Of a stretch of DNA of 64,000 nt, positions 33,369 through 63,410 are shown piece after piece. The notes beneath the pieces were generated by a model that did not search any database, was not told the origin of the DNA, and worked only from the letters and a program-made list of their open reading frames with translations. Source of the DNA: Tenacibaculum sp. Bg11-29 (GTDB lineage: Bacteria; Bacteroidota; Bacteroidia; Flavobacteriales; Flavobacteriaceae); the NCBI RefSeq assembly GCF_002836595.1, contig NZ_PJBB01000003.1, positions 2,665,001 to 2,729,000 of the forward strand, in the 5' to 3' direction. Made by a program: the position numbers and the translations under genes. Every line of letters starts with the position of its first letter. The stretch's first letter is position 1.

Positions 33369-33456
33369 AAAAGTGAAGTTTTTAATATATTTATGTATAT
33401 TTAGCGTAATTAATTTCACTTATAGTTCACTTAAAATATTTTACGACTTCACTTTT
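33369..33456. repeat. Heptamer repeats upstream of the integrase (possible arm sites)
   Basis: The heptamer TTCACTT occurs directly at 33415-33421, 33426-33432 and 33448-33454, and inverted as AAGTGAA at 33371-33377. The outer copies form a perfect 10-bp inverted repeat (AAAAGTGAAG with CTTCACTTTT). Their position right before the recombinase gene fits integrase or excisionase arm-type binding sites, but no core site was identified. Confidence 0.4.
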
Positions 33457-34683
33457 ATGGCTTCAGCTAAATTAAAATTAAAAACTTCACAAACTTTAAA
33501 AGATTGTTCTCATCCTATAATAATTCAAATACTTAAAGATAAAAAAAAAGCAATAACAACGCTAAATATTAATTGTCATATTGAAGAGTGGGATATAAAA
33601 ACGAACCTTCCTAAAAATAGAAGGCTTTCATTAATATGTCAAAAAAAACTTTTAGAATGCGAAGAGTTGCTGTTTGAAGGAATTGATAAAGGTTGGTCTT
33701 CAAAAAAAATTGCAAGCATATTTGCCGGAAAGGATACTAAAGAAATAATGTTTTTTAAATATTCTGCTGAAATTAATTTTGAAAATAAAATTGGTATTTC
33801 TACAAAATTACTAGATGCGTCTAAACTTAAAAAGTTTAAAAATTTTATAGGAGGTAAAGATATTTCGTTTAACGAACTAGATTTTCAATTACTATCTAAA
33901 TATAAGAAGTTTTTAGAAGATGAAGGTTTAAAAAGTGCTACTAGATATTTATCAATACTTAGGCAAGTATATAACTACGCTATTGAACAAGATGATTTTG
34001 TACCTAAGAAAAACCCATTTAAATCGTCACTCTTTAGTAAAAAAATAACTACAACAACTATAAATAGAAACTTAAACTTAATTAAGACAAAAGAACTATT
34101 TAAACTTAATTATGGCACTGGTTGGGGAAAGTCTTATAAAGATATGTCGTTAGACTTTTGGAAATTTTGTTTTTTAATGCGAGGAATAAATTTTATTGAA
34201 ATGGCGCTAATTAAACCAAAAGATATAGAAGGGGAGTATTTTAGTTTTACTAGAGAAAAATTAAAAACAAAAATTAATACTAAACAGAAAATTAAAATTT
34301 ACCCTGAAGCTAGAGAAATTATAAAAAAATATTTTGTTAAAGGAAACGATTACGTTTTTCCATTATTAGAAAACGGATATAATAAAGATACTAGTATTAA
34401 TGATTATAAAGCTTATAAACACAAGCTTACAGTAATAAATAGTAATTTACGAAACATAGGAAAAAAAGATTTAAATGTTGATTTTAATTTAACCTCAATG
34501 TCAGCTAGGTATACCTTTATAAATTTAGCAAAGTTAAATGAAGTTCCATTTCTTTATTTACAAGAATTATTAGGTCATAAAACTAAATCTACAACCGATA
34601 TTTATTTAGATGTATTTCCGCAGGAAAAAATAGATAATTATCATAGACAAGTAATAGATAAAGTTCTTAAAGAATTGTGGTAA
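33457..34683 (+). CDS. Tyrosine recombinase (phage-type integrase)
   Basis: From the ATG at 33457 the product is 408 residues starting MASAKLKLKTS, the usual start of Bacteroidetes phage/ICE integrases; a longer frame runs into the heptamer repeats. An arm-binding domain (IIIQILKDKKKAITTLNINCHIEEWD) and a SAM-like core-binding domain precede the catalytic domain. Likely catalytic residues are Arg in CFLMRGINFIEMALI, Arg in SMSARYTFINLA (the usual HxxR His is not conserved), His in LLGHKTKSTTDIYL and its Tyr. It is not an integron IntI by overall layout. It marks the left end of the accessory element after recR. Confidence 0.85.
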   Translation: MASAKLKLKTSQTLKDCSHPIIIQILKDKKKAITTLNINCHIEEWDIKTNLPKNRRLSLICQKKLLECEELLFEGIDKGWSSKKIASIFAGKDTKEIMFFKYSAEINFENKIGISTKLLDASKLKKFKNFIGGKDISFNELDFQLLSKYKKFLEDEGLKSATRYLSILRQVYNYAIEQDDFVPKKNPFKSSLFSKKITTTTINRNLNLIKTKELFKLNYGTGWGKSYKDMSLDFWKFCFLMRGINFIEMALIKPKDIEGEYFSFTREKLKTKINTKQKIKIYPEAREIIKKYFVKGNDYVFPLLENGYNKDTSINDYKAYKHKLTVINSNLRNIGKKDLNVDFNLTSMSARYTFINLAKLNEVPFLYLQELLGHKTKSTTDIYLDVFPQEKIDNYHRQVIDKVLKELW

Positions 34684-44586: not shown

Positions 44587-44925
44587 ATGAAAAAGAAATT
44601 GAATTTAAAAATAAACGAATTAATCTCTCTTCACAAAATCACAAACAAGCTTTATGATTTAAACTTCTCATTGCTTGAGAAAGAAGAAAAAATAGCAGTT
44701 TCAATAGGTTTGATATTGGCTGACAAGTTTGATAAAAAATATAAAACCATTCAAAAGAAACTAGATTTATTCGAAGCAAAAAAATCAATCAAATTTACTT
44801 TAGATTTTTACGAAGCATGGGCATTAAAAAAATTATGTATTGAATTATACGGTATTGGAGATACTGATTTTGAAAAACTAGGTATTCAAAATGTAATAAA
44901 TAAACTAGATCGTGATGGATGCTAA
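44587..44925 (+). CDS. Unknown helical protein of the replication operon
   Basis: 112 residues, Lys/Leu-rich and mainly helical (LNLKINELISLHKITNKLYD, FLEAKKSIKFTLDFYEAWALK). No membrane segment and no family recognised. Tight spacing to both neighbours implies co-transcription. Confidence 0.5.
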   Translation: MKKKLNLKINELISLHKITNKLYDLNFSLLEKEEKIAVSIGLILADKFDKKYKTIQKKLDLFEAKKSIKFTLDFYEAWALKKLCIELYGIGDTDFEKLGIQNVINKLDRDGC

Positions 44926-44986
44926 TTTGAAACATATTTCAGAAAACAATATTCAAAAACTAAAAAACAAAATAGGGTTAAAATGA
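44915..44986 (+). CDS. Possible 23-residue overlapping peptide
   Basis: ATG at 44915 opens a frame (MDANLKHISENNIQKLKNKI) that overlaps the preceding gene by 11 bases and ends with TGA overlapping the next ATG. The overlaps at both ends fit translational coupling across the gap; it could also be chance. Confidence 0.25.
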   Translation: MDANLKHISENNIQKLKNKIGLK

Positions 44987-45579
44987 GTTATAAATTAGAA
45001 GATAAAATGACAAGTTTACGAGCAGTTTCTATTGCTGTTTTACTTTACATTTTTGGCTATGCTTTAAAAATTTCTGTACTACTTGTCGAAGTTTTAAACC
45101 CAATAATACCAAATATAATTGTAAAGTTTATAGCAGCAGGGTTTACAGGAGTAGCTTTATCAACTGGCTTATTAATAGTATCGGTTAACGATAAAAATAA
45201 ATACACTCCTTATGTAATTGCACTAATGGATGCAGTAATGTTATTACTTGTGTTTAATATTCTTAATTCAAAATCAATTAATGAAACTCTTACTTCAAGT
45301 TTTATTAGCTTTTTCATGGCTTTTATAGGGTATCAATTAATTTCAGTTTTTGTAACTAAATACAAGCAAACAATTAGCGAAAAGCAGCAAGCAATAAGCG
45401 AAATTAATATTGAGTGTAGCGAATCATTACAAGAGCTTAACGAATTAAAGCGAGAGTTAAGGGAAGTAAAACAAACTACTTGCGGATTTTGCGAAAAAGA
45501 GTACTCCAGTAAAAATGCTTTAAACGCTCATGTTGGTAGATGTAAAGAGAACCCTAAAAACAAAAAAGTAGCAGCATGA
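44983..45579 (+). CDS. Membrane protein with coiled coil and C2H2 zinc finger
   Basis: 198 residues. Four hydrophobic helices span about 12-32, 40-68, 76-92 and 105-125, followed by a coiled coil (about 128-160, SEKQQAISEINIECSESLQE). The C-terminus is a classical C2H2 pattern, CGFCEKEYSSKNALNAHVGRC (Cys-x2-Cys-x12-His-x3-Cys variant). A bacterial membrane protein ending in a C2H2-type finger is uncommon. It could tether element DNA or a partner to the membrane; this is inference. Confidence 0.5.
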   Translation: MSYKLEDKMTSLRAVSIAVLLYIFGYALKISVLLVEVLNPIIPNIIVKFIAAGFTGVALSTGLLIVSVNDKNKYTPYVIALMDAVMLLLVFNILNSKSINETLTSSFISFFMAFIGYQLISVFVTKYKQTISEKQQAISEINIECSESLQELNELKRELREVKQTTCGFCEKEYSSKNALNAHVGRCKENPKNKKVAA

Positions 45580-45695
45580 TAAAAGATATATTAAATGAAT
45601 GTTTATTGTTTAGAACAAATGACAAAGTGATAAGAGTAATTGGAGCCATGATGTGGTTGAGCATCATACTAATAATAATAGCATTAAATCTGTAG
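45576..45695 (+). CDS. Small single-helix membrane protein
   Basis: 39 residues (MIKDILNECLLFRTNDKVIR, then a hydrophobic helix IGAMMWLSIILIIIALNL). Its start overlaps the preceding stop as ATGA. The last nine bases AATCTGTAG are identical to the ends of three other unrelated small genes nearby. Confidence 0.5.
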   Translation: MIKDILNECLLFRTNDKVIRVIGAMMWLSIILIIIALNL

Positions 45696-45700
45696 TAAAA

Positions 45701-45718
45701 GGTGTCGAATTCGACACC
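45701..45718. terminator. Terminator between convergent genes, leader-peptide unit 1
   Basis: A perfect palindrome GGTGTCGAATTCGACACC between the plus-strand membrane protein and the minus-strand peptide gene. Confidence 0.65.
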
Positions 45719-45740
45719 TTTAGGAAAGTAAACTAAAAGA

Positions 45741-45914
45741 CTAGAAACATTCTTGTTCACAAATGGTATTCGATGTAATAAGACATCGACAACCAGGAGA
45801 AGGAGGTGGACATGCCATATTATAACAAGCTGAGCGAGTAAATTTCCCTCCATTAATAGATTGTTGTTCAGTTTTATTTAATACTGAACCTAAGTTTGAA
45901 ATGTTCTTTAACAT
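45741..45914 (-). CDS. GG-leader Cys-rich peptide precursor 1
   Basis: 57 residues from the ATG at 45914; an upstream TTG in frame lies inside the -7 box and is rejected. The leader MLKNISNLGSVLNKTEQQSI ends in NGG, the double-glycine type cleavage context. The core (about 34 residues) holds six Cys (SACYNMACPPPSPGCRC...TICEQECF), suggesting three disulfides or another modification. It resembles secreted bacteriocin-type peptides of Flavobacteriia. It has its own -7 box (45936-45943) and terminator. No modification enzyme or ABC exporter is seen in the window. Confidence 0.7.
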   Translation of the reverse strand: MLKNISNLGSVLNKTEQQSINGGKFTRSACYNMACPPPSPGCRCLITSNTICEQECF

Positions 45915-45935
45915 AATTTGAGTTTTAAAGTTTCT

Positions 45936-45943
45936 CAAATCTA
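45936..45943 (-). promoter_or_regulatory. -7 box of peptide unit 1
   Basis: Minus strand TAGATTTG fits TAnnTTTG, 22 bases before the ATG. GAGAAACTTTAAAACTC after it can form a small stem in the 5' UTR. Confidence 0.55.
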
Positions 45944-45968
45944 AATAGTATAAAATAAAATTGATGAT

Positions 45969-46030
45969 AAAAAACCGTAAAAAAAGTAAGGTAAAACCTT
46001 ACTTAACTAAAATTAACATAAATAGTGTAG
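45969..46030. repeat. Upstream block of peptide unit, copy 1
   Basis: About 60 bases: AAACCGTAAAAAAAGTAAGG, then a TAAGGTAAAACCTTA hairpin, ACTTAACTAAAATTAACA and TAGTGTAG. Near-identical blocks lie upstream of the other four peptide promoters. Confidence 0.65.
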
Positions 46031-46190
46031 TAAAAAAGAAAAGAAGCAGTCCCCCCGGATAACTTCTTTTCGATATAATTAACTCAAATTTAAACTATAC
46101 AGTAAAGATCGTTTAAGAAGAAAGTTAAATCGTTTAATATTAGATAAATGGCCTTAAACTATCGCTTAAAAGCGAAAAACAGTAGAAATT
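46026..46190 (+). repeat. 165-bp direct repeat, copy A (with C-loop hairpin)
   Basis: It differs from copy B at 47552-47716 by five bases on reading, with no gap. It contains the hairpin AGAAG-cagtCCCCCCGgataa-CTTCT (46042-46067) and TCGCTT-AA-AAGCGA near its end, and stops right before the ATG of the 95-residue gene. Confidence 0.75.
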
Positions 46191-46478
46191 ATGATAGAAT
46201 CTGTAAAAGTAGAAGGAGTAGTTTATGAAAGAATTCCTTACGAAGGAGATTTTGATGAATTTTTATTAGAAAATATTCATTCAAGTGATATCGAAGAGTA
46301 TGCAGAGTATCATTTAGATATGATTAAAGAAGATAAAATGAAACCAACTTGTGTTACTGATTATTCTGAAGATGATCTTTTAGGAGCTTTAAAAGAAAGT
46401 GGATGGATTTTAATAAAACCTGAATCCTTGACTGAAGAGATAAGAATAAAAGAATTAATAGACTTAGACAATCTGTAG
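46191..46478 (+). CDS. Acidic small protein of unknown function
   Basis: 95 residues, strongly acidic (YEGDFDEFLLENIHSSDIEEYAEYH, DYSEDDLLGALKESGW). No signal peptide or membrane helix, no family recognised. The acidic character recalls phage DNA-mimic or inhibitor proteins, but nothing supports a specific target. It starts right after a 165-bp repeat and ends in the shared AATCTGTAG, so it looks like an exchangeable cargo gene. Confidence 0.5.
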   Translation: MIESVKVEGVVYERIPYEGDFDEFLLENIHSSDIEEYAEYHLDMIKEDKMKPTCVTDYSEDDLLGALKESGWILIKPESLTEEIRIKELIDLDNL

Positions 46479-46494
46479 GTTTTAAAACAAAAAA

Positions 46495-46516
46495 ATGGCT
46501 CCTGGGGAGAAGCCAT
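46495..46516 (+). terminator. Hairpin with G-run loop after the acidic gene
   Basis: ATGGCT pairs with AGCCAT around CCTGGGGAGA. The GGGG loop is complementary to the C-run loops of the neighbouring hairpin family. A further AAGGGGAAATAAA follows at 46526 and again at 46713. Confidence 0.5.
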
Positions 46517-46597
46517 AAAAACAAAAAGGGGAAATAAATTTTAATTGTCAAATAACCCTTCAAAAGAAAATTTAACTATAAAACGAAAATCAAACTC

Positions 46598-46690
46598 TAA
46601 ACTATACTGTAAAGATAATTTAAGAAGATCGTTGAATTTTTAAAAGTTAGATTAATGGCATTTAAGTATCGATGAAAAGAAAAATAGTAT
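46598..46690 (+). repeat. Divergent copy of the 165-bp repeat core
   Basis: Shares AAACTATACTGTAAAGATAA, TTTAAGAAG, TTAGATTAATGGC and TATCGATGAAAAG with the right part of copies A and B. No gene follows directly. Confidence 0.55.
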
Positions 46691-46728
46691 AGATAAACAA
46701 ACTGTAGTTAAGAAGGGGAAATAAAAAA

Positions 46729-46789
46729 CCCACTTCTTTGAGAAGTGGGAAAATTGCTATGAAAAAGAAAACTTAAGACGTCTCTTAAG
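46729..46789 (+). repeat. Paired hairpins CCCACTTC and CTTAAGA, copy 1
   Basis: CCCACTTC-tttga-GAAGTGGG (terminator-like), then AAAATTGCTATGAAAAAGAA, then CTTAAGA-CGTC-TCTTAAG. A second complete copy lies at 47404-47461, and the first hairpin alone recurs at 50986. Confidence 0.55.
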
Positions 46790-46867
46790 AAGTTTCAAAA
46801 TTAAGTTAAATTATTTAGATAGTAAAACAAATAGAATAAATAAAACTGTAGTGTTTTTAATAAAAAG

Positions 46868-46928
46868 AAGGAACCATTATAGTTCCTTCCATTTAATATA
46901 AAGCTATAGATCCCCCCGAATTCTATAG
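46868..46928 (+). repeat. Tandem hairpin pair, copy 3
   Basis: First hairpin AAGGAAC-cattata-GTTCCTT, linker atttaatata, second hairpin CTATAGAT-CCCCCCGA-ATTCTATAG with a six-C loop. It lies 66 bases before the ASCH-domain gene. Confidence 0.6.
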
Positions 46929-46993
46929 TTTCTATTAACTAATTAGAAACAAGAAAAGAATAAAAGTCACAAGGGAATTAAAATAAGTGTAGT

Positions 46994-47386
46994 ATGACGG
47001 ATAACACATTACATCTGAATTTAAAACGAAAATGGTTTGATATGATATTGAAGGGAATTAAAACCGAAGAGTATCGAGACATTAAACCATTTTGGGATAA
47101 ACGTTTTTGGCATTTATTCCCTCAGGAAATTAAAGGAGAAACATTTTACCCAATTGTTGACACTATTACTTTCTCAAATGGTTACTCAAAGACTCGCTCA
47201 CAATTTGTAATTGAGTTAAAGAGCTTAAAAAAAAGAACTGGCATAGAAAATTGGGGAGCTAACAAAGATGTAAAATATTATGTATTTGAACTTGGTAAAA
47301 TAATCAAGGCAGGAAGACAAGGTTTTCATTTTAGAATAACTGAAGAAATGCCTTTAAATGAAATAGTAAACACACTAAATATGTAG
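46994..47386 (+). CDS. ASCH-domain protein
   Basis: 130 residues. The N-terminus LHLNLKRKWFDMILKGIKTEEYR is the ASCH signature (small beta-barrel related to PUA), with the substrate pocket residues Lys/Glu in GIKTEEYRDIKPFW. ASCH proteins bind RNA or modified nucleosides; some hydrolyse N4-acetylcytidine. In phages and mobile elements they occur as accessory genes. It has its own terminator hairpin behind it (47404) and a C-loop hairpin pair in front. Confidence 0.7.
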   Translation: MTDNTLHLNLKRKWFDMILKGIKTEEYRDIKPFWDKRFWHLFPQEIKGETFYPIVDTITFSNGYSKTRSQFVIELKSLKKRTGIENWGANKDVKYYVFELGKIIKAGRQGFHFRITEEMPLNEIVNTLNM

Positions 47387-47403
47387 AAATTATAACAAAA
47401 AAA

Positions 47404-47461
47404 CTCACTTTTTTGAGAGGTGGGAAATTGCTATGAAAAAGAACTTAAGACGTCTCTTAAG
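47404..47461 (+). repeat. Paired hairpins, copy 2
   Basis: Imperfect CTCACTT...GAGAGGTGGG hairpin followed by the same AAATTGCTATGAAAAAGAA linker and a perfect CTTAAGA-CGTC-TCTTAAG hairpin (47444-47461), directly after the ASCH gene. Confidence 0.55.
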
Positions 47462-47551
47462 AGCTGCTAAATTAAATCGAATTAAACAGAATAGTGAATA
47501 ATAAACCGTAGAAAAAGTACGGTAAAACCATAAAATACATATTAAAAATAC

Positions 47552-47716
47552 TGTAGTAAAAGAGAAAAGAAGCAGTCCCCCCGTATAACTTCTTTTCGAT
47601 ATAATTAACTCAAATTTAAACTATACAGTAAAGATAGTTTAAGAAGGAAGTTAAATCGTTTAATATTAGATAAATGGCGTTAAACTATCGCTTAAAAGCG
47701 AAAAACAGTAGAAATT
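47552..47716 (+). repeat. 165-bp direct repeat, copy B (with C-loop hairpin)
   Basis: Five differences from copy A. Includes AGAAG-cagtCCCCCCGtataa-CTTCT. Here no plus-strand gene follows; instead the terminator of peptide unit 2 comes 25 bases later. Confidence 0.75.
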
Positions 47717-47740
47717 GTGGGAAGTAAAAGGAAGAAAAAA

Positions 47741-47756
47741 GCGATCCGAAGATCGC
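47741..47756 (-). terminator. Terminator of peptide unit 2
   Basis: GCGATC-cgaa-GATCGC preceded by six A on the plus strand (T run on the minus transcript). The same hairpin is reused at 48667. Confidence 0.7.
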
Positions 47757-47767
47757 TAGGTAATACA

Positions 47768-47935
47768 TTAATCACAAGCAGTAATATCCATTGTTCCACC
47801 GTTATCACATTTAATGTAGGTAGTAGTACATCCGTCAGCAGTAATAGTCGACTCGGTACATGCGTCTCCACCATTAATAGATTGTTGTTGTTGTTTGTTT
47901 AGGACAGAACCTAAGTTTGAAATATTCTTTAACAT
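47768..47935 (-). CDS. GG-leader Cys-containing peptide precursor 2
   Basis: 55 residues. The leader MLKNISNLGSVLNKQQQQSI ends in NGG. The core is acidic and Thr-rich with four Cys (DACTESTITADGCTTTYIKC...TACD). The first 14 residues are identical to precursor 1 while the core is unrelated, as expected for a conserved leader with a diversifying product. The -7 box TATTTTTG is at 47956-47963 on the minus strand and a terminator follows. It is too short for usual gene-length cutoffs. Confidence 0.65.
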   Translation of the reverse strand: MLKNISNLGSVLNKQQQQSINGGDACTESTITADGCTTTYIKCDNGGTMDITACD

Positions 47936-47955
47936 AATTGTAGTTTTAAATTTCT

Positions 47956-47963
47956 CAAAAATA
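47956..47963 (-). promoter_or_regulatory. -7 box of peptide unit 2
   Basis: Minus strand TATTTTTG (TAnnTTTG), 20 bases before the ATG, followed by GAGAAATTTAAAACT as in the other units. Confidence 0.5.
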
Positions 47964-47989
47964 AAAATAAAAAAAAAAGGTTAGTCAGA

Positions 47990-48057
47990 AAAAACCGTAA
48001 AAAAAGTAAGGCTGAACCTTACTTAACTAAAATTAACAAATAATATAAATAGTGTAG
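47990..48057. repeat. Upstream block of peptide unit, copy 2
   Basis: AAACCGTAAAAAAAGTAAGG, a TAAGGCTGAACCTTA hairpin, ACTTAACTAAAATTAACA and AGTGTAG, as in unit 1. Confidence 0.65.
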
Positions 48058-48062
48058 ATAAA

Positions 48063-48284
48063 ATGAATTTAGAAAAAGTAACAAAAATTGACCAGATCAA
48101 AAAAGATGATACTATAATAATTACTGGTGCTGGTTTAGTTAATCATCCTGCAAAAGCATATATAGTAAAAGTGAGTAAAGATGGTACGGAAATCATTTTT
48201 GATAAAGGGAAAAACTTATTTATAAACTTAACAATGTTTTTAAAAGGGAAAAGCTGGTGTAAAGAATTAGCAATACTAAAATAA
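48063..48284 (+). CDS. Unknown 73-residue protein
   Basis: MNLEKVTKIDQIKKDDTIII then TGAGLVNHPAKAYIVKVSKD and FINLTMFLKGKSWCKELAIL. The pattern of short beta strands and the KKDDTIII..G........AYIVKVS segment resemble small SH3-like barrels, but no family is recognised. It starts a few bases after a TAGTGTAG block end. Confidence 0.45.
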   Translation: MNLEKVTKIDQIKKDDTIIITGAGLVNHPAKAYIVKVSKDGTEIIFDKGKNLFINLTMFLKGKSWCKELAILK

Positions 48285-48295
48285 GAGTAGATATA

Positions 48296-48579
48296 ATGGC
48301 AAATGAAGTTTTTAAATTTGGGAAAGTAACCGGTGCAATTTTATAATTACAGATTACGCACCGGAACAAAGAAAAAGTTTTTCAATTTGTGGTCATTGGT
48401 CAGGTTTTGTAAATCAGTTTAAAAATGGTGAAACTATTTCCGAAATAAAAGAGAGTGCAAAAAATTGGCTCCGGAACAAATTGAAAGAAAATTTTGATAA
48501 TCAGTATTCAAGTGAAAAACAGTTTCGGTGGCTCTTGAATGAATTAGAAAACGAAAATCAATTAACATTTAATCTGTAG
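48296..48579 (+). pseudogene. Frameshifted small gene
   Basis: ATG at 48296 reads MANEVFKFGKVTGAIL and stops. Adding one base near 48345 joins it to an open frame ITDYAPEQRKSFSICGHWSG...LRNKLKENFDNQYS...ENQLTFNL ending at 48579, giving about 93 residues. The end again is AATCTGTAG. So a single-base deletion probably inactivated this cargo gene, or a slippage is used. No family recognised. Confidence 0.5.
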
Positions 48580-48666
48580 ATAATCGGAGCCTAGTAACGG
48601 AACAAAAAAGTTACTGGGAATCAAAAAAAAGTGTAAAAATAATGAAAGATAAATAGGTGAAAAAAG

Positions 48667-48682
48667 CGATCCGAAGATCGCA
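48667..48682 (-). terminator. Terminator of peptide unit 3
   Basis: GCGATC-cgaa-GATCGC with six A in front, identical to that of unit 2. Confidence 0.7.
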
Positions 48683-48692
48683 AATTCAATTT

Positions 48693-48890
48693 TTAACAAA
48701 AAGCATGGATATTAGATGCGTAAATGCAAATACCAGAACAACAAATAGAAGGAATCGTATTAGTTTGTTTACAATCAGTACTAGTATTACAAGATTCACC
48801 AAATCCTTCATTAAACCTTCCGCTTCCTTTAATTTGTTTTTGATCAGATTTAGTTAATTCTAATCCTAAGTTTGAAATGTTTTTTAACAT
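48693..48890 (-). CDS. Leader-type Cys-rich peptide precursor 3
   Basis: 65 residues. The leader MLKNISNLGLELTKSDQKQI is followed by KGSG rather than NGG, so the processing site is altered (Gly-Ser-Gly). The core has six Cys with a knottin-like order (SCNTSTDC...SICCSGICIY...AFC), including a Cys-Cys pair. -7 box TAAATTTG at 48911-48918. Most divergent of the five units in leader, promoter flank and upstream block. Confidence 0.65.
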   Translation of the reverse strand: MLKNISNLGLELTKSDQKQIKGSGRFNEGFGESCNTSTDCKQTNTIPSICCSGICIYASNIHAFC

Positions 48891-48910
48891 AATATAAGTT
48901 TTAAGTTTTA

Positions 48911-48918
48911 CAAATTTA
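48911..48918 (-). promoter_or_regulatory. -7 box of peptide unit 3
   Basis: Minus strand TAAATTTG, 20 bases before the ATG. Confidence 0.5.
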
Positions 48919-48943
48919 AAAGGTTAAAAATAAAGTTAGTAAG

Positions 48944-49000
48944 AAAAAAACGTAAAATAAGTAAGGCTAAACCTCACTTAACTAAAAATTAACAAATAAC
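48944..49000. repeat. Upstream block of peptide unit, copy 3 (divergent)
   Basis: AAACGTAAAATAAGTAAGGC, CTAAACCTCACTTAACTAAA and AATTAACAAATAAC; it lacks the AGTGTAG end of the other copies. Confidence 0.55.
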
Positions 49001-49144
49001 TTAAAGATTAAGGTATAGGTGAAAAACCATAAAATAAGTAAGTTAAAAACCATAAAAAAAATTAATAAAACAGTAATAAAAAGAATACAATGGAAAAAAC
49101 AGAACAAACAATTACAAAATCAACAGTAGATTTTAAAACAAGAG

Positions 49145-49203
49145 AAAGGAGCCATTACAGCTCCTTTCAATTAATCAATCTTTAAATCTCCCCGACTTAA
49201 TTT
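49145..49203 (+). repeat. Tandem hairpin pair, copy 4
   Basis: AAAGGAGC-cattaca-GCTCCTTT, linker caattaatcaatc, then TAAATCT-CCCCG-ACTTAATTTA. The next 80 bases match 35680-35755, up to ACTGTAGAG. Confidence 0.6.
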
Positions 49204-49293
49204 AATAGATCAAATATATATAAGGTTTTTTAATTTTTTAAATTGAATTGATAAGTAAAATTTATTTAGATATAAAAAAAAACTGTAGAGATT

Positions 49294-49389
49294 ATGAAAA
49301 AATTAGGTTTCAAAACAAAGGACTATATAATATTAACAGCTTTACTAGTGTTTGCAATTTTTGCATTCTGGAAAGCATTTAATCTGTAG
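49294..49389 (+). CDS. Small single-helix membrane protein
   Basis: 31 residues (MKKLGFKTKDYIILTALLVF, then AIFAFWKAFNL), a basic N-terminus and one hydrophobic helix. It ends in AATCTGTAG and begins nine bases after ACTGTAG. Comparable in design to the 39-residue protein at 45576. A toxin-like or holin-like peptide is possible. Confidence 0.45.
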   Translation: MKKLGFKTKDYIILTALLVFAIFAFWKAFNL

Positions 49390-49405
49390 AATAAGGAGTA
49401 TAAAA

Positions 49406-49427
49406 AAAGCGAACCGAAGCTCGCTTT
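49406..49427 (-). terminator. Terminator of peptide unit 4
   Basis: AAAGCGA-accgaagc-TCGCTTT with an A run before it; a variant of the GCGATC-cgaa-GATCGC hairpin of units 2 and 3. Confidence 0.65.
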
Positions 49428-49448
49428 ATAAATTTGTTCGTTAAATAA

Positions 49449-49622
49449 TTATAATAAAATACAACCATACCAACCACATTGACAAGGCTCTCTTAATACA
49501 TATCCATTTGGTAATGTTCTACAACAAGTTGAATTACCACATTGTGACCAATTACCACCATTAATAGATTTTTGTTCAGTTTTGTTTAGGGTAGTACCCA
49601 AGTTTGAGATGTTTTTTAACAT
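49449..49622 (-). CDS. GG-leader Cys-rich peptide precursor 4
   Basis: 57 residues from the ATG at 49622 (an in-frame TTG upstream lies in the -7 box). The leader MLKNISNLGTTLNKTEQKSI ends in NGG. The core is NWSQCGNSTCCRTLPNGYVL and REPCQCGWYGCILL, six Cys including Cys-Cys and a Trp/Tyr-rich end. -7 box TATATTTG at 49644-49651. The core shares no obvious similarity with the other four. Confidence 0.7.
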   Translation of the reverse strand: MLKNISNLGTTLNKTEQKSINGGNWSQCGNSTCCRTLPNGYVLREPCQCGWYGCILL

Positions 49623-49643
49623 AATAAAATGTTTTAAGTTTCT

Positions 49644-49651
49644 CAAATATA
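49644..49651 (-). promoter_or_regulatory. -7 box of peptide unit 4
   Basis: Minus strand TATATTTG, 21 bases before the ATG, followed by GAGAAACTTAAAAC. Confidence 0.5.
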
Positions 49652-49676
49652 AATAGATAAAAATATAATAGACAAT

Positions 49677-49744
49677 AAAAAACCGTAATAAAAGTAAGGT
49701 AAAACCCTACTTAACTAAAATTAACAAATAACATAAATAGTGTA
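49677..49744. repeat. Upstream block of peptide unit, copy 4
   Basis: AACCGTAATAAAAGTAAGGT, AAAACCCTACTTAACTAAAA, TTAACAAATAACATAAATAG and TGTA; near-identical to copies 1, 2 and 5. Confidence 0.65.
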
Positions 49745-49773
49745 ATTAAAGTGAAAAGATTAAATCAATAAAA

Positions 49774-49829
49774 AAGAGTTCATTTCTGAACTCTTGATTA
49801 ATAAAGCTTTTTATCCCCATAAGAAAGCT
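49774..49829 (+). repeat. Tandem hairpin pair, copy 5
   Basis: AAGAGTTCA-tttc-TGAACTCTT, linker gattaataa, then AGCTTTTTAT-CCCC-ATAAGAAAGCT. The second hairpin is identical to that at 35498-35522. Confidence 0.6.
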
Positions 49830-49949
49830 ATATACATTTTGGTTTTTTCAAAATTAAATTATTAAAGATAAAGTTATAGATTAAAAACCGTAAAATAAGT
49901 AAGGTAAAAGCGTAAAATAAATATTAATCAAACAGTAGTAAAAATGAAA

Positions 49950-49978
49950 AGAGCCCTAATTTATCAAAAAAGGGCTCT
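49950..49978 (-). terminator. Terminator of peptide unit 5
   Basis: AGAGCCCT pairs with AGGGCTCT around an A/T-rich loop, with an A run inside the loop side. Confidence 0.6.
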
Positions 49979-49995
49979 AATATAATGAGAGATTA

Positions 49996-50175
49996 TTAAA
50001 AAGGTGTGATGTCAGAATAAACACATCTATTACCAATGCATTCAACAGAAAGATGAATAGGTGAAGCACATGGTGTTGGTCTAGAAGGGTCACAAGAGTA
50101 TTGAAGACCTCCATTAATAGATTTTTGCTCTGATTTGTTCAATACTGAACCTAAGTTTGAAATGTTCTTTAGCAT
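49996..50175 (-). CDS. GG-leader Cys-containing peptide precursor 5
   Basis: 59 residues. The leader MLKNISNLGSVLNKSEQKSI ends in NGG. The core LQYSCDPSRPTPCASPIHLS continues VECIGNRCVYSDITPF, with four Cys. -7 box TAATTTTG at 50196-50203, terminator at 49950. This unit is nearest to the C39-like peptidase gene (430 bases away, opposite strand). Confidence 0.65.
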   Translation of the reverse strand: MLKNISNLGSVLNKSEQKSINGGLQYSCDPSRPTPCASPIHLSVECIGNRCVYSDITPF

Positions 50176-50195
50176 AATTTGAGTTTTTAATTTCT

Positions 50196-50203
50196 CAAAA
50201 TTA
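50196..50203 (-). promoter_or_regulatory. -7 box of peptide unit 5
   Basis: Minus strand TAATTTTG, 20 bases before the ATG, followed by GAGAAATTAAAAACTC, which can pair as in unit 1. Confidence 0.5.
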
Positions 50204-50228
50204 AAAAGTAAAAATTAAGATTAGTATA

Positions 50229-50290
50229 AAAAAACCGTAAAAAAAGTAAGGTAAAACCTTACTTAACTAAAATTAACATAAATAGTGTAG
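50229..50290. repeat. Upstream block of peptide unit, copy 5
   Basis: Identical in order and almost in sequence to copy 1, ending TAGTGTAG. Confidence 0.65.
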
Positions 50291-50331
50291 GAATTATGAA
50301 TGTAGAATCATTAATAAATATGATAAAAAAA

Positions 50332-50364
50332 ACCAGTACTAGGGTATAAAAATCTAGTACTGGT
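50332..50364 (+). terminator. Strong hairpin, possible terminator
   Basis: ACCAGTACTAG pairs perfectly with CTAGTACTGGT across an 11-base loop. No T run follows, so termination is uncertain. The rest of the 50365-50482 stretch shows nothing clear. Confidence 0.4.
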
Positions 50365-50482
50365 AAATTAAATATATTATTAAGAAATGTATAAATGTTT
50401 CTTTTTAGTGACCTCTTTTCTATGGGGTGAGATTTACTTTATGTTTCATTTACAAATTCTATATATTTAATTATCTATATAA

Positions 50483-50570
50483 AAAACTATACTGTAAATA
50501 TAATTTAAGAAGAGGTGTGAGTTTTAAATGTTAGATAAATAGCATTGAAGTATCGATTAAAAATCAAAAA
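50483..50570 (+). repeat. Divergent copy of the 165-bp repeat core
   Basis: AAACTATACTGTAAATATAA, TTTAAGAAGAGG, TTAGATAAATAGCATTGAAG and TATCGATTAAAAATC match the right part of copies A and B. It lies about 35 bases before the C39-like peptidase gene, as copy A precedes the acidic gene. Confidence 0.55.
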
Positions 50571-50604
50571 GTAAGGATAAATAAATTGTAATTAAATAAG
50601 CAAA

Positions 50605-50976
50605 ATGAATAAAATTAAATTTATAGAACAACCGTATCATTCTAAAAAATGCGGACAGGCTTGTCTTTCCATGGTAACAGGAAAATCTATAGATGAAGTT
50701 TGCACAATTTTAGGGAAAAAATGGTCAACTTGTATTGAATCAGATTTACAAACCTTACTAAATAAAGAAGGTTATAAAACCACGTTAATTCGTGCTAGTG
50801 GCATGAAATTAAAAGCGATCCCTAATAACAGCATTGTACTTTTAAGTTATCCTAATGAAACAAGACACTTTGTATTGAAGAGTGCTGATAAAATTTATGA
50901 TCCATCGGTAGGAGTAATAGATCAAATGTTAGCTTATATAGAAGTATTGCATTATTTAACCTTTGAAAAGTCATAA
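50605..50976 (+). CDS. Stand-alone C39-like cysteine peptidase
   Basis: 123 residues, the size of a bare peptidase domain. EQPYHSKKCGQACLSMVTGK at residues 8-27 gives the oxyanion Gln9 and catalytic Cys16. TRHFVLKSADKIYDPSVGVI supplies His88 and Asp99, matching the HFVVL...DPA.G pattern of C39 leader peptidases, the domain that cuts double-glycine leaders in bacteriocin exporters. Here it is not fused to an ABC transporter and has no signal peptide, so it acts in the cytosol. Its neighbours are five genes with double-glycine-type leaders, so leader removal is the likely role. Related stand-alone papain-fold proteins with other roles exist. Confidence 0.65.
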   Translation: MNKIKFIEQPYHSKKCGQACLSMVTGKSIDEVCTILGKKWSTCIESDLQTLLNKEGYKTTLIRASGMKLKAIPNNSIVLLSYPNETRHFVLKSADKIYDPSVGVIDQMLAYIEVLHYLTFEKS

Positions 50977-50985
50977 AATAAAAAA

Positions 50986-51006
50986 CCCACTTCATTGAGA
51001 GGTGGG
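50986..51006 (+). terminator. Terminator of the C39-like gene
   Basis: CCCACTTC-attga-GAGGTGGG followed by AAAATTGCTATGAAAAAGAA, the same hairpin and tail as at 46729 and 47404. Confidence 0.6.
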
Positions 51007-51099
51007 AAAATTGCTATGAAAAAGAAATGTCGAAATGAGACTCCGACAGCATCAAATATAAAGATTAATGCAGACCTAAGCAATAAAAAAAGGTAATAC

Positions 51100-51130
51100 T
51101 GTTGCAACAAAATTAACTTTTGTTGCAACA
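51100..51130. repeat. Paired TGTTGCAACA palindromes (left side)
   Basis: TGTTGCAACA at 51100-51109 and 51121-51130 with AAATTAACTTT between; together GTTGCAACAAAA and TTTTGTTGCAAC form a longer inverted repeat. The following 140 bases are rich in GCAACA and AACAAA. The same palindrome recurs at the other end of the virus-like operon. Confidence 0.55.
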
Positions 51131-51273
51131 GTACGTAAATGCTTTAGGTAACAGATAAACGTAGTATTAATAAAGGTTTTAGTGAGTTAAAAATAAGTAA
51201 ATCAACAAAACAGCAACAAGGTTACAACAAAAGAGCAACAGCAAATCAACTAACTGCAACAAATAATTAAACA

Positions 51274-51483
51274 ATGGAGTCTCAAATAAACTACCCAAAA
51301 TTAATGGGGACAAAAAAGGAATTAGCAAATCATTATTGGAAACTTTCTAGTCGATTTTTCCGTAATACTATTAATAGAATAATTTCAGAATCTAGGAATA
51401 TACCATTAGGAGAAGCGAAACGATTAAAAACAATAACACCAAGAGAATTTAAATTGTTTGTAGCAGAAATTGATGGAATTTAG
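51274..51483 (+). CDS. Unknown 69-residue protein
   Basis: MESQINYPKLMGTKKELANH is followed by YWKLSSRFFRNTINRIISES and KRLKTITPREFKLFVAEIDGI: a basic, helical small protein, possibly DNA-binding. It is separated from the large operon by the tandem decamers and may act on them; this is inference. Confidence 0.45.
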   Translation: MESQINYPKLMGTKKELANHYWKLSSRFFRNTINRIISESRNIPLGEAKRLKTITPREFKLFVAEIDGI

Positions 51484-51490
51484 CAAAAGT

Positions 51491-51560
51491 ATCCTAACGA
51501 ATCCTAACGAATCGTTGCAAAAGCTAACAAATCCTAACGAAAGCTAACGAATCCTAACAC
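51491..51560. repeat. Seven tandem decamers (iteron-like)
   Basis: Read in steps of ten: ATCCTAACGA, ATCCTAACGA, ATCGTTGCAA, AAGCTAACAA, ATCCTAACGA, AAGCTAACGA, ATCCTAACAC. Six carry CTAAC at the same phase. The period equals about one helical turn, so a protein array would bind one face. It lies 65 bases upstream of the first gene of the virus-like operon: origin iterons or a late-promoter activator site. Confidence 0.6.
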
Positions 51561-53188: not shown

Positions 53189-53196
53189 AAAGAAAA

Positions 53197-53658
53197 ATGA
53201 AGTTTAAATTTAATCAAAAAAACGCCATTGATTCAACCATTACAGGAGTTGCTGCCATTACAGGAGCTACTGCCTCAAAAGGAATCATGGGAATTGTTCC
53301 AGAAGGGGCAAAAAAACCAATTGTAAGAGCAGGAATTTCATTATTAACGCTTGCAATAGCAAGTGGAATTCAAGGAAATGACACTTTAGCAAAAGCCTCA
53401 AAAGGCGCTTTGTTGGGTATTTCAGTAGAGCAAGGCTTAACCTCAGTTTCAAAATTAGTCTCTCCAAGTGTAAAGGATACTCCAACAACCAAAGGAGAAA
53501 AATTTGTTGCTGCCATTGCGGGAATGAATGGAGGAGAAGAAGATATGTATCAACCTACATTAAGTCTTTCAGCGTATGACTGGAATTTAAATGATGTACT
53601 TGATGAAGTAGGAGATACCGCCAAAAGTAAATTATTAACAAGTGATTTTAAAGCATAA
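53197..53658 (+). CDS. Small hydrophobic structural-type protein
   Basis: 153 residues. Ala/Gly/Ile-rich weakly hydrophobic stretches (about 15-35 and 42-62, GISLLTLAIASGIQG) suggest membrane association. The C-terminal 40 residues are acidic and soluble. No family is recognised. It lies nine bases after the transglutaminase-like gene; abundance-type composition would fit a virion membrane protein. Confidence 0.45.
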   Translation: MKFKFNQKNAIDSTITGVAAITGATASKGIMGIVPEGAKKPIVRAGISLLTLAIASGIQGNDTLAKASKGALLGISVEQGLTSVSKLVSPSVKDTPTTKGEKFVAAIAGMNGGEEDMYQPTLSLSAYDWNLNDVLDEVGDTAKSKLLTSDFKA

Positions 53659-53662
53659 AAAA

Positions 53663-54259
53663 ATGAATAGCACAGTTTACAACATAGACGCTCAAAAAGC
53701 TGCAATAAAAGCAATTTTAGTAGCAAATGAAAAGAAATTAAGCCCACAATTTATAGGTGATTTTTCGAATCAAAGAATCAAGATTTTAAATGGAACTCCA
53801 ATTTTAAGAAAGGAAATTAAGCCTTCAATGGGGATTCAAAACTTAATTGATGAAGACACACGAAAAGTGGTTGGCGTATCCGATTTTTCTGAAAAAGTAA
53901 TTTCAAATACGGAAGTTTTAATTATTGAGAAACTAAGAATAGGGTATTGTACATCTTTAGCTTCTAAAGCAGAAGCTTTAGGAGCTTATAAAAAGGCATT
54001 GCCTGTTGCTTTTAGAAATGCAACATTCAGAATTCGTCAAGACGGCGATGTTATTTATGAAACTGGTTTGTCAGATGTGTTTAACAGATATACAGGTACT
54101 TCTTTAGAAGATGATTATGTGCACTTAAAAAATCCAGTAACATTAGTTGGTGGATTAGAAATCAAATTTGAATTAGAATTTGGAAAAGGAGCTGAGGCAC
54201 ATAAAACAGAAATTGAGTATTTAGAGCTTGGTTTTGGAGGTATAAAACTATCTCGTTAA
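53663..54259 (+). CDS. Beta-rich protein, capsid-protein candidate
   Basis: 198 residues from the ATG at 53663 (MNSTVYNIDAQ). No membrane segment. After a short helical N-terminus the protein is dominated by alternating beta-type sequence (IKILNGTPILRKEIKP, FRNATFRIRQDGDVIYETG, VTLVGGLEIKFELEFG). Size and pattern could fit a single jelly-roll capsid protein. It is the last gene before a terminator-like hairpin, which suggests graded expression with this gene among the most expressed. The capsid assignment is inference. Confidence 0.4.
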   Translation: MNSTVYNIDAQKAAIKAILVANEKKLSPQFIGDFSNQRIKILNGTPILRKEIKPSMGIQNLIDEDTRKVVGVSDFSEKVISNTEVLIIEKLRIGYCTSLASKAEALGAYKKALPVAFRNATFRIRQDGDVIYETGLSDVFNRYTGTSLEDDYVHLKNPVTLVGGLEIKFELEFGKGAEAHKTEIEYLELGFGGIKLSR

Positions 54260-54282
54260 GCGTTAATTAATATTCAAATAAT

Positions 54283-54316
54283 AAAAAAGCTCTTGCTTTT
54301 AAGTAAGAGCTTTTTT
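54283..54316 (+). terminator. Terminator or attenuator inside the operon
   Basis: AAAAAAGCTCTT pairs with AAGAGCTTTTTT, followed by T's. It separates the first three genes from the next thirteen, so it probably reduces downstream transcription. Confidence 0.8.
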
Positions 54317-54330
54317 TTAAAATTTTTCAG

Positions 54331-54678
54331 ATGAAAATCAAATCAAAAGTAGCAAACATTAAAATTGTTTCAGGTACTAATAAAGACTCTAAAACAATAC
54401 ACATAGAAAAAGGTACTGTTTTAAAATGTGCTTTGTTCGTAAATGGTTCTCTACCAAGTGAAATTGTCAATGTAAAAATTGAAGATGCAAGTACAGGCGA
54501 TGAATTACACCCATTTATTACCTACCATGAATATCAACCAACCAATGGAAACCATTTTGACAGTAGAAAAGATATGCATTTTGATGGAAATAGAGATGTG
54601 AAAATCACAACGCAAGCAATGGGAGATTTAGCAGCCGATTTCAACTTTCAAATGATATTTTATTATAATAAAGCATAA
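54331..54678 (+). CDS. Small beta-rich protein of the virus-like operon
   Basis: 115 residues, no membrane segment; beta-type pattern (VANIKIVSG, TIHIEKGTVLKCALFVNG, NVKIEDASTGDELHPF). No family is recognised. Possibly a second, smaller capsid or decoration protein; with the 53663 product it would make a pair of jelly-roll-sized proteins. Low certainty. Confidence 0.45.
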   Translation: MKIKSKVANIKIVSGTNKDSKTIHIEKGTVLKCALFVNGSLPSEIVNVKIEDASTGDELHPFITYHEYQPTNGNHFDSRKDMHFDGNRDVKITTQAMGDLAADFNFQMIFYYNKA

Positions 54679-54683
54679 ATTAA

Positions 54684-54959: not shown

Positions 54960-54979
54960 TTAAATGACCACCGATCAAG

Positions 54980-56052: not shown

Positions 56053-56062
56053 ACCAAAAGCA

Positions 56063-56854: not shown

Positions 56855-56856
56855 AA

Positions 56857-58732: not shown

Positions 58733-58735
58733 ATC

Positions 58736-61098: not shown

Positions 61099-61103
61099 TA
61101 TTT

Positions 61104-63410
61104 ATGTTAGAATCACTTATTCAGCAATACAACGCATTAGATAATACCGAAGTAACTAGAGTTTTTTTAACCACTTTTTTAAAACAATTAGCCCTTGTAA
61201 AAAATACAACCAAAGAAGCTCGTTTTATGCACGGTAAAATTCAAAGCATTTTAAACGAATTTACAGACGATGCGTTTTTTATTGAGTTGTCAAAAAAAAT
61301 AAAAACGATAGATGTTGCGGAATTACAAGGAATGGGAATTCCGCTGTACAACCGACCTGTAAAAGATGTTACTCAGGGATTAAATGGTAAAATTAATGCA
61401 GTAGACATTTATCAGATGATCACAGATAAGATGATTGCTTTAATAGAAGAAGCAACCGGACACGGTTATCAAAAAAAATGGCAAGAAACGATTAACGAAT
61501 TTATGTACCCGGTAAACTTTGTATCTAAGAAAGCATACAGAGGCATCAATCATGCGCTTTTAACCATTTTTGGAATGCAAAGTTTTGAGAACCCTTACTT
61601 TTTAACCTTCAAACAAATTGAAAAGCTTAAAGGAAAAATTAAGAAAGGATCAAAAGGTCATGAAGTAATTTATTTTACAAAGCTGTTTGTATTTCAACAA
61701 GAATCGCCTAAATTAAAAATAGGAACTTACGATGTAAAGCGGTTTGTTTCGTACATCAACAAACATAAAAGTAAAATTAAACACTTTCAAAAAGGAGGGA
61801 GTTTAGATTCCTTTATTTATAAATCGACAGTTCCTTTATTAAGATACTACTGTGTGTTTAACGGGTCAGATATTGAAGGAATAGATTTTAAATTAGATGA
61901 GTACCGAAAAGAATTTGCCAAAACAGCTAAAGAGAAAATTACAACAGCTGAAGCAATTGTAAAAGCGTATCCAAAACCAAATCCACCGTTAAGACATGGT
62001 GGAGATAATGCGTATTACACCCCTACGAATGACTTTGTGCAAATGCCTAAGCTGAATGACTTTGATACTAAGGAAGATTACTATAGAACGTTGTTTCATG
62101 AGTTTATTCATAGTACAGGCCATAAAAAAAGATTAGATCGTTTTGTACCTGGTGTAAGTTTTGGAAATGCAGCTTATGCAAAAGAAGAATTAGTGGCAGA
62201 ATTTGGGGCTATTTTTTTAAGTGCAGAAGCGGGTATTATGTGGCGTAATAATTCTAATCATGCAGAATATATAAAGAATTGGAAAAGTGCTTTAAAACAC
62301 CTAAAAGAGGATAATAAATTACTCTTTAGAGCAAGTTCACAAGCGCAAAAAGCAACGGACTTTATTTTGCAACGCGATGAAAATGGCGTTCCAAAGTATT
62401 TACATGGATTATTAAAAACAGTCAAAAAGAAAGTTACAAGACAAAAAGAAGTTGTGGGAATGAACGCACCCGAAATAATTCTTGATTTACCACCAATTAA
62501 AGAAATGATTCTTAGGTTACCACCAAAGCAAGAATTACTTGTTGCAACAAGTAGCAGCAAAATTGCAACAAAACTGCAACAAGAAGAATTTAAAGAAGCA
62601 ACTGTACAAGCCCCTGTAAATACAGTGCTTTCTGAAGTTGTTGCAGAAAACAAAACACCTTTGTTGCAACAAAACAACAACGTTGCAACAAAACCGCAAC
62701 AAGTGTTGCATGAATCTAAAAGAGGAACAACAAAGCAACACAAAAATGTTTTGTCTACTTCAGATATTAATAATATGACTTTTGATACGTTGCCTTTTAC
62801 AGGGGAGTGGGCTAATTTTATGCAAGAACCTGCAAAAACAATGAAATTAGCAATTTGGGGGAAACCTAAAAATGGTAAAACAGCAGGAGCAACAAAACTG
62901 GCAAATTACTTGACTAATTTTGGAAGTATACTTTATAATTTTGCAGACCAGGGAATAAATAAAAGTACGCAAGATTTATGGAAGTTATCAGGATTACATG
63001 AAAAAGAGAATGCTTTTCTTTCTGAAGCAAGAGAAATAAAAGACCTTGAAAAATTATGTGCTAGTGGAGATTATGATTTTGTTTTTATTGATATGATAAA
63101 TACCTACATTCATAGAACAGGAATGAAACCTCATGAGTTTGAAGATCGATTTATAAAGAAATTTCCTAATATTTCATTCATTTTAATTTTTGAGGTAACC
63201 AAGTCTGGGAATTTTAAAGGAGATCAAGGATGGACGCATTTAACTGATGCATTAATTACGGTTGATAGTTTTGTGATGCATAACCAAGGACGTTATGGAG
63301 TAGGTGAGTATGTTGTATGGGAAGAAGGTTTAAGAAAAGTAAACCCTAAGAAGTACAAAGAGTATTTTGGTGAAGAAGAGGAAGAAAAAGAAATCGTTAT
63401 AGATTTATAA
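61104..63410 (+). CDS. ArdC-type metallopeptidase fused to a P-loop ATPase
   Basis: 768 residues. Residues about 140-270 resemble the ArdC N-terminal (ssDNA-binding) domain. About 300-420 is a zincin domain with HEFIHSTGH (His332, Glu333, His336, His340) and EELVAEFGA. A low-complexity linker (about 455-550) carries GTTGCAACA repeats at DNA level. The C-terminal 190 residues are a RecA/AAA-type ATPase: Walker A GKPKNGKT (586-593) and Walker B YDFVFIDM (657-664). ArdC proteins protect incoming ssDNA from restriction. The ATPase may be a packaging or recombination enzyme. The fusion is unusual. A terminator follows. Confidence 0.6.
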   Translation: MLESLIQQYNALDNTEVTRVFLTTFLKQLALVKNTTKEARFMHGKIQSILNEFTDDAFFIELSKKIKTIDVAELQGMGIPLYNRPVKDVTQGLNGKINAVDIYQMITDKMIALIEEATGHGYQKKWQETINEFMYPVNFVSKKAYRGINHALLTIFGMQSFENPYFLTFKQIEKLKGKIKKGSKGHEVIYFTKLFVFQQESPKLKIGTYDVKRFVSYINKHKSKIKHFQKGGSLDSFIYKSTVPLLRYYCVFNGSDIEGIDFKLDEYRKEFAKTAKEKITTAEAIVKAYPKPNPPLRHGGDNAYYTPTNDFVQMPKLNDFDTKEDYYRTLFHEFIHSTGHKKRLDRFVPGVSFGNAAYAKEELVAEFGAIFLSAEAGIMWRNNSNHAEYIKNWKSALKHLKEDNKLLFRASSQAQKATDFILQRDENGVPKYLHGLLKTVKKKVTRQKEVVGMNAPEIILDLPPIKEMILRLPPKQELLVATSSSKIATKLQQEEFKEATVQAPVNTVLSEVVAENKTPLLQQNNNVATKPQQVLHESKRGTTKQHKNVLSTSDINNMTFDTLPFTGEWANFMQEPAKTMKLAIWGKPKNGKTAGATKLANYLTNFGSILYNFADQGINKSTQDLWKLSGLHEKENAFLSEAREIKDLEKLCASGDYDFVFIDMINTYIHRTGMKPHEFEDRFIKKFPNISFILIFEVTKSGNFKGDQGWTHLTDALITVDSFVMHNQGRYGVGEYVVWEEGLRKVNPKKYKEYFGEEEEEKEIVIDL

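Follow-up and report, generated by a model that had tools for sequence, protein, structure and literature searches.

All five double-glycine-leader peptide genes of the window, the 64,000-nucleotide stretch of Tenacibaculum sp. Bg11-29 DNA analyzed here (2665001-2729000 of a 4.54-Mb contig), sit in a slot of 4.9 kb within an integrated element that resembles a virus. We think it reasonably probable that they are cargo cassettes of an array occupying a fixed slot of this Tenacibaculum element, and that a shared regulon, export, oxidation, and a role against competitors go with them. Across related elements, the cassettes change while the backbone stays; many of the breaks fall at the motif CTAC(A/T)(G/C)T (CTACWST), and the peptide cores differ completely past Gly-Gly. 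A shared, predicted operator-promoter precedes C39-VKOR genes (one copy with a variant block in the Bg11-29 genome) and two host TssD-fusion genes. A first-pass annotation had seen in the five genes a bacteriocin-type family multiplied by unit duplication inside a mobile element; the junction, the nonpeptide cassettes as such, the operator on host genes, and the peptidase gene at the array edge were missing from it.

A Fixed Slot in a Virus-Like Element

The slot is delimited by two relatives of the element. Homology to element A, located on the same chromosome (C3 3.945-3.976 Mb; 79.9% identity), breaks off at 45695 and restarts at 50604, and homology to the element of genome G278, taken as T. 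ovolyticum (96.0% identity), breaks off at 45695 and restarts at 50615. The slot between the matching edges measures 4.9 kb in the window, 13.5 kb in element A, and 2.0 kb in G278. The G278 element is integrated at the same recR site as the window element, and the earlier assignment to a mobile element is supported. The window and G278 backbones align in blocks of 85 to 97% identity, mostly 91 to 97% and 85% beside the peptidase gene, and portions of 36.8-41.4 kb do not align. The G278 slot contains five junctions and has zero alignment to the window slot; no leader peptide was seen in its sequence. A more distant syntenic element in G286 contains an array, including a leader peptide, beside a C39-like gene, and junction arrays adjoin the homologous C39-like gene in all three relatives (element A, G278, and G286). 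On the right side, homology to element A and G278 stops at 63636. A 75-bp repeat (93%) borders element A on both sides, at C3 3945186 and 3975582; it begins with ACTACTC, which includes CTAC.

As first described, the five genes lie on the minus strand and share a leader: all begin MLKNISNLG, and the leader, 23 residues long, ends INGG in four and IKGS in the third. Leader identity is 0.70, a value that includes one unit cut one codon short, so that the minimum of 0.28 is possibly an artifact; cores are 32% identical vs. 28% for shuffled cores, and their Cys counts (Table 1) agree with the range of four to six given earlier. The leader profile had 25 hits in the genome, and the number of core Cys was even, four or six, in 10 of 10 peptides compared. 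The leaders ending in GG or GS ahead of a variable core and a C39-type ABC exporter in the genome support the idea of bacteriocin-type leader peptides, and the cysteine-rich peptides of the array are probably secreted. The NCBIfam model leader_Chryseo (NF047798, bacteriocin-like protein), curated at 23.5 bits, gave 11.9 and 11.7 bits for two of the five peptides and no match for the other three. The profile search proposed at first pass, carried out within the genus, matched 27 of 97 genomes, the highest count in a single genome being 56. Elsewhere, a leader peptide adjoins a radical SAM gene in the same genome (L014 7838-9324), and CTAC junctions with a leader peptide stand beside a candidate uridine-kinase-like gene, apparently outside a provirus (L070 1302-3546).

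The description of the genes as repeated units of 320 to 342 bases needed more revision. Each peptide unit contains one copy of a 175-nt repeat family, with copy starts 553 to 2021 bp apart, but the units are not contiguous and other units stand between them; four measure 335 to 356 bp from junction to junction, and the third is fused to the remnant of another unit. That they arose simply by a single peptide unit duplicating locally and diverging within the element now looks improbable, and the earlier reading of multiplication by unit duplication holds only in part. Leader and promoter are common to the units at high identity, and unit 4 has its best partner within the array; however, the peptide units alternate with unrelated cassettes, and the cassettes are shared with other elements and chromosomal loci, breaking at junctions. 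In three of the four units tested (unit 2 escaped the search pattern), the closest relative of leader and promoter was found outside the array, in one of them by a narrow margin (0.816 vs. 0.810).

Proposed Cassette Exchange at CTAC Junctions

The minus strand of the window slot has 13 occurrences of the CTACWST motif and the plus strand none, compared with a mean of 1.3 and a maximum of 6 in 1000 dinucleotide shuffles of the slot. Counts by direction were 12/2 in element A, 5/0 in G278, 8/1 in G286, and 13/0 in an 8-kb Tenacibaculum locus (L048). The junction at 49745 is a variant, TTACACT, and there were no GTAG partners within 30 nt of 18 window junctions. Inside the window, a block of 155 bp between junctions is duplicated as a whole. 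A 431-bp ASCH cassette of array A is found at three places outside the window, with 99.8% identity at 2.017 Mb and 97% inside A; its copies have unrelated flanks and break at TAC. One segment of 395 bp, bearing CTACTG at each end, occurs in G278 but is missing from the orthologous Bg11-29 locus. The alignments in the array have 74 distinct ends, of which 15 were at junctions or slot edges (expected 5.0; p 1e-4) and 6 at leader/core borders (expected 1.3), with all five borders hit; some T. ovolyticum stretches entered this count twice, the named loci and G278 being the same DNA, which affects the counts of distinct ends less.

We tentatively propose, with rather less than even confidence, a cassette exchange different from that of integrons: tailless proviruses and chromosomal loci would trade small cassettes at CTAC(A/T)(G/C)T, and the cargo of secreted peptides and short RNAs would arrive already connected to a host operator, which likewise precedes a chromosomal peptide-oxidizing gene and genes of type VI secretion system (T6SS) effector type.

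A row of small cassettes in a virus-like genome resembles the integron and CALIN (cluster of attC sites lacking integron integrases) arrays of phages, which, in the consulted part of that report, consist of small, mostly single-ORF (open reading frame) cassettes, including one toxin-antitoxin cassette with its own promoter (PMC9892861). The window array differs from what is described there in having no attC, in its CTAC(A/T)(G/C)T junction, and in the lack of an IntI over the cut-off in the genome. We consider it hard to credit that this is an integron array whose cassettes an integron integrase moves at attC sites. Searches of both strands of the window array gave zero attC-like sites by the strict rule and zero by the relaxed rule, TIGR02249 matched the genome in 12 pieces with none over the cut-off, and the CTAC junction differs from GTTRRRY. 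In its favor, array A contains six attC-like sites of 130 to 134 bp by the relaxed rule (0.44 expected in shuffles), and a 376-aa tyrosine recombinase at 2.09 Mb fits the integron-integrase model in two pieces. The six sites of element A (C3 3948246-3961735; L011, L018) are nested among CTAC cassettes.

CTAC could also be a gene-start or gene-end signal, with modules swapped by homologous recombination between such short signals; an analogue would be the start-associated sequences that cluster K mycobacteriophages reportedly carry. Plus-strand ORFs do begin 3 to 12 nt past GTAG, some stop codons fall within the next junction, and the absence of a detected recombinase fits as well. We nevertheless regard this as unlikely, if worth serious consideration: the motif is also present between pairs of minus-strand units without a plus-strand gene start (for example, at 46030, 49938, and 50290), and its orientation in the window is always the same.

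A Shared, Predicted Operator-Promoter

The upstream elements reported at first pass, a TAnnTTTG box about 20 nt ahead of the ATG and a CCTTACTT/AAGTAAGG block further upstream, were recovered on reading the peptide units. The block had been called a hairpin; its position, upstream of the promoter box, favors a DNA operator over an RNA structure. The pattern TTACTTNTTTTAYRGTTT...TTTG occurs at 16 distinct sites in the 4.5-Mb genome, 15 of them with the exact 54-bp length, and the reversed pattern at none. Reading of their surroundings assigned the 16 sites to 6 leader peptides, 2 TssD-fusion genes, and 8 noncoding units or remnant. In a genus-blind scan, the 54-bp spacing was found at 31 of 32 Tenacibaculum sites vs. 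4 of 18 elsewhere. These 31 sites precede 15 leader peptides, 8 C39-VKOR genes, 1 TssD gene, and 7 short noncoding units, where the rule alone gave 15 leader, 7 VKOR, and 1 TssD gene with 8 unassigned and reading changed three sites: L051 (to leader), L065 (to VKOR, the gene being cut by the locus end), and the first site of L046 (to noncoding, the rule having picked up the leader of the next unit). The leader gene is further downstream of the operator in L042 and L073 than in the other loci.

The two TssD fusions of the Bg11-29 genome have the exact operator block upstream. In each, a TssD (Hcp) domain is extended by a long C-terminal part (C3 2176174-2177682 and 3862698-3864542; L079, L080), and one of them has a weak M43 peptidase match.

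Proposed Maturation, Export, and Role of the Peptides

The backbone gene adjoining the array at 50605-50976 is predicted to encode a C39-type double-glycine peptidase. Gln, Cys, His, and Asp are invariant in seven of seven relatives, and a confident predicted model matches the solved structures of the PCAT1, LahT, and ComA peptidase domains, pointing to a C39 fold with its catalytic residues; the Pfam family PF03412 reached 19.7 bits (E 8e-4), below the curated 22. Unlike PCAT1, LahT, and ComA, the protein has no attached transporter and is encoded by the element backbone. Among 199 genomes of the family, it was found in Bg11-29 only. G278 carries the gene as well although its array shows no leader peptide, so the gene does not belong to these five peptides only.

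Further candidates are located elsewhere on the chromosome. A C39-ABC exporter (1802612-1804624) matches PF03412 (3e-16), PF00664, and PF00005 and has an HlyD-like partner at 1.80 Mb; like-named candidate second copies are present, among them an exporter frame at 1811295-1813307. Two VKOR genes are found at 1.80-1.815 Mb, and in the C39-VKOR protein of this genome, preceded by the variant operator block, the VKOR, Thioredoxin_4, and Peptidase_C39 domains are all over the cut-off.

In the scheme that we favor, each peptide cassette carries its own operator-promoter, leader, core, and terminator, and a host regulator, perhaps one of the LuxR-type response regulators beside a chromosomal array, would switch the whole set on jointly. 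Host C39-ABC exporters would cleave past Gly-Gly and secrete the cores, VKOR would oxidize them to disulfides, and the mature peptides would inhibit competing bacteria, to the benefit of lysogen and provirus. Cassettes may be gained and lost by a site-specific recombinase or by recombination at short shared junctions.

The peptides might instead be signals (pheromones), a private repertoire for provirus or host that is read by host two-component systems. Two LuxR-type response regulators adjoin chromosomal array B, and ComA-type peptidases, which process signals as well as toxins, are among the best fold matches of the element peptidase. However, five unrelated cores would need five receptors, a receptor-like match was absent in the three array ORFs scanned, and the T6SS TssD fusions behind the same operator point to competition; we find this reading distinctly unlikely. 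Very improbable, in our view, is a service to the virus itself, such as blocking competing viruses or superinfection, rather than host rivalry with bacteria. The backbone's own double-glycine-peptidase fold adjoining the array would suit such a role, but the same leader family and operator are found in loci that look chromosomal, and the leader genes track a host maturation gene.

This last association is seen among the 97 genus genomes, of which 27 have the leader, 28 have C39-VKOR relatives, and 25 have both (Fisher p 1e-17), in a test that ignores phylogeny. The leader occurs without VKOR in G210 (67% complete) and G215, and VKOR without the leader in G244 and G261 (both <30% identity) and in G250 (one internal stop). 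The neglect of phylogeny is one of several points that weigh against the favored scheme and the proposed exchange. Fifty-three of the 74 alignment ends coincide with no junction and no leader/core border; a second indel of 80 bp, in the locus of the 395-bp segment, has CTAC at one end only; and in a rough alignment of chromosomal array B with its T. ovolyticum counterpart, TAC(A/T) is near both ends in 3 of 16 indels. A tblastn search with four recombinases of Bg11-29 in the 60 kb around the G286 array did not find a recombinase shared across elements, and the searches made tied none to the CTAC junction. The exact operator pattern was found in 10 of 97 genus genomes (in one of them, G206, only with other spacing; reversed control 2) vs. 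leader genes in 27, so many leader genes are controlled otherwise. Finally, the second VKOR gene of Bg11-29 is without the operator block, and the peptides of the exporter locus have upstream sequences unlike the array operator.

Other Cassettes and Backbone Genes

The minus-strand units, five peptides and about nine noncoding units, have a terminator-like hairpin at the end and mostly a promoter-like box (Table 1). Four of the nine noncoding units were folded and showed one or two hairpins with a G run in a loop, one of the four being without a TTTG box; the remaining five were assigned by eye from the sequence. Rfam gave only two matches on 44900-51500, both far under the gathering scores. 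Short units of hairpin and terminator with G-rich loops, which recur in the genome, were noted at 46030-46185, 46851-46992, 47556-47711, and 49745-49938 and in array B (L013 3900-11300); such units, several of them under the shared operator, are possible new small-RNA families. At the outer edge of the array, 50292-50602 is 95.8% identical to a Bg11-29 locus near 4.458 Mb and 95.5% identical to T. ovolyticum L046.

The plus-strand units are ORFs nearly filling their cassette. The ASCH protein has 25 relatives among viral contigs, the best in an IMG/VR contig (L111) with 10.4 kb and no CTACWST; in that contig, the relative of the ASCH gene lies between sequences resembling attC halves.

In the backbone, the protein encoded at 53642 resembles a single-jelly-roll capsid protein, so the element is possibly a tailless virus in integrated form; this capsid candidate had no match among 50,697 phage records and none among PDB sequences. 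Seven of 10 element proteins were without a match in PHROGs, and one other had only a marginal tape-measure match. The genes at 51626-63410 are likely structural and mostly without a phage-family match. The 198-aa backbone protein had zero relatives among the viral contigs searched.

Table 1. Features of the element and its cassette array, in window coordinates
Feature	Position	Strand	Remarks
Element tyrosine integrase	33373..34683	+	Adjoins recR (32685-33305), element start
198-aa backbone gene	44983..45579	+	Opposite side of array from peptidase gene; 98% identical in G278
Cassette-array slot between two backbone genes	45695..50604	.	Edges of homology to element A and G278 element
Leader peptide 1, 57 aa	45741..45914	-	6 Cys in core
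Operator-promoter of peptide 1	45936..45989	-	TTACTT to TTTG, 54 bp
Noncoding cassette, copy 1: promoter-like box, G-rich-loop terminator hairpin	46030..46185	-	96% identical to 47556-47711, identity bounded by junctions
ORF cassette, 95 aa	46191..46478	+	No own promoter seen; stop TAG inside next junction
Noncoding unit, terminator-like hairpin at end	46478..46707	-	By eye
Noncoding unit, promoter-like box and terminator-like hairpin	46707..46851	-	By eye
Noncoding unit, GGGGGG-loop hairpin and terminator	46851..46992	-	Fold; TTTG box not found before it
ORF cassette, 130 aa	46994..47386	+	Weak ASCH match, 15.8 bits (cut-off 21.2)
Noncoding unit, operator-like block and terminator-like hairpin	47387..47556	-	By eye; relatives found by alignment
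Noncoding cassette, copy 2	47556..47711	-	Duplicate of 46030-46185; fold
Leader peptide 2, 55 aa	47768..47935	-	4 Cys
Operator-promoter of peptide 2	47956..48009	-	
ORF cassette, 73 aa	48063..48284	+	
Cassette with apparently frameshifted ORF	48290..48579	+	By eye
Leader peptide 3, 65 aa	48693..48890	-	6 Cys
Variant operator-promoter of peptide 3	48892..48971	-	Repeat D2
Noncoding cassette	49129..49288	-	90% identical to G278 C1 568866-569026, both ends at junctions
31-aa hydrophobic peptide ORF	49294..49389	+	Fills 101-bp cassette; hand translation
Leader peptide 4, 57 aa	49449..49622	-	6 Cys
Variant operator-promoter of peptide 4	49625..49704	-	Repeat D2
Noncoding unit, operator-promoter (49849-49902), GGGG hairpin, terminator	49745..49938	-	Pattern and fold
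Leader peptide 5, 59 aa	49996..50175	-	4 Cys
Operator-promoter of peptide 5	50196..50249	-	
Noncoding cassette	50290..50604	-	Outer edge is slot edge rather than CTAC motif; alignment
Stand-alone C39-type double-glycine peptidase fold	50605..50976	+	Backbone gene adjoining array
Capsid candidate, single-jelly-roll-like	53642..54259	+	
Anti-restriction and ATPase protein near right end of element	61104..63410	+	phrog_7245, phrog_6891

Relation to Known Systems and Significance

The kind of system is known. Bacteroidetocins, as described in the consulted part of their report, are Bacteroidota peptides with a Gly-Gly leader of 15 to 16 residues and four Cys, for which disulfides are supported, and their loci also encode a thiol oxidoreductase and a C39-type ABC transporter (PMC6671954). 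The peptides here are likewise Cys-rich and have Gly-Gly leaders, and the genome has a candidate thiol oxidoreductase, the VKOR-thioredoxin-C39 protein, and a C39 exporter. Compared with that description, the leader is 23 residues, the five unrelated cores are separate cassettes in a virus-like element, and the candidates for maturation and export are encoded at other chromosomal sites rather than beside the peptides. The many leader peptides per genome agree with the portion consulted of an account of Bacteroidota precursors of ribosomally synthesized and posttranslationally modified peptides, in which Tenacibaculum and Kordia are rich; the array, the junction, and the shared operator are absent from that portion (PMC11118758). 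The arrangement and the junction were not met in the literature among the matches listed, judged by title or abstract.

The findings suggest that proviruses store weapons or signals for their hosts and exchange them. If the reading is right, it shows how a provirus maintains a variable set of secreted peptides that connects to host regulation and maturation, and the combination of leader, operator, and junction would provide a rule for finding further disulfide-rich peptides among marine Flavobacteriia. It would also establish a second kind of small-cassette array beside integrons.

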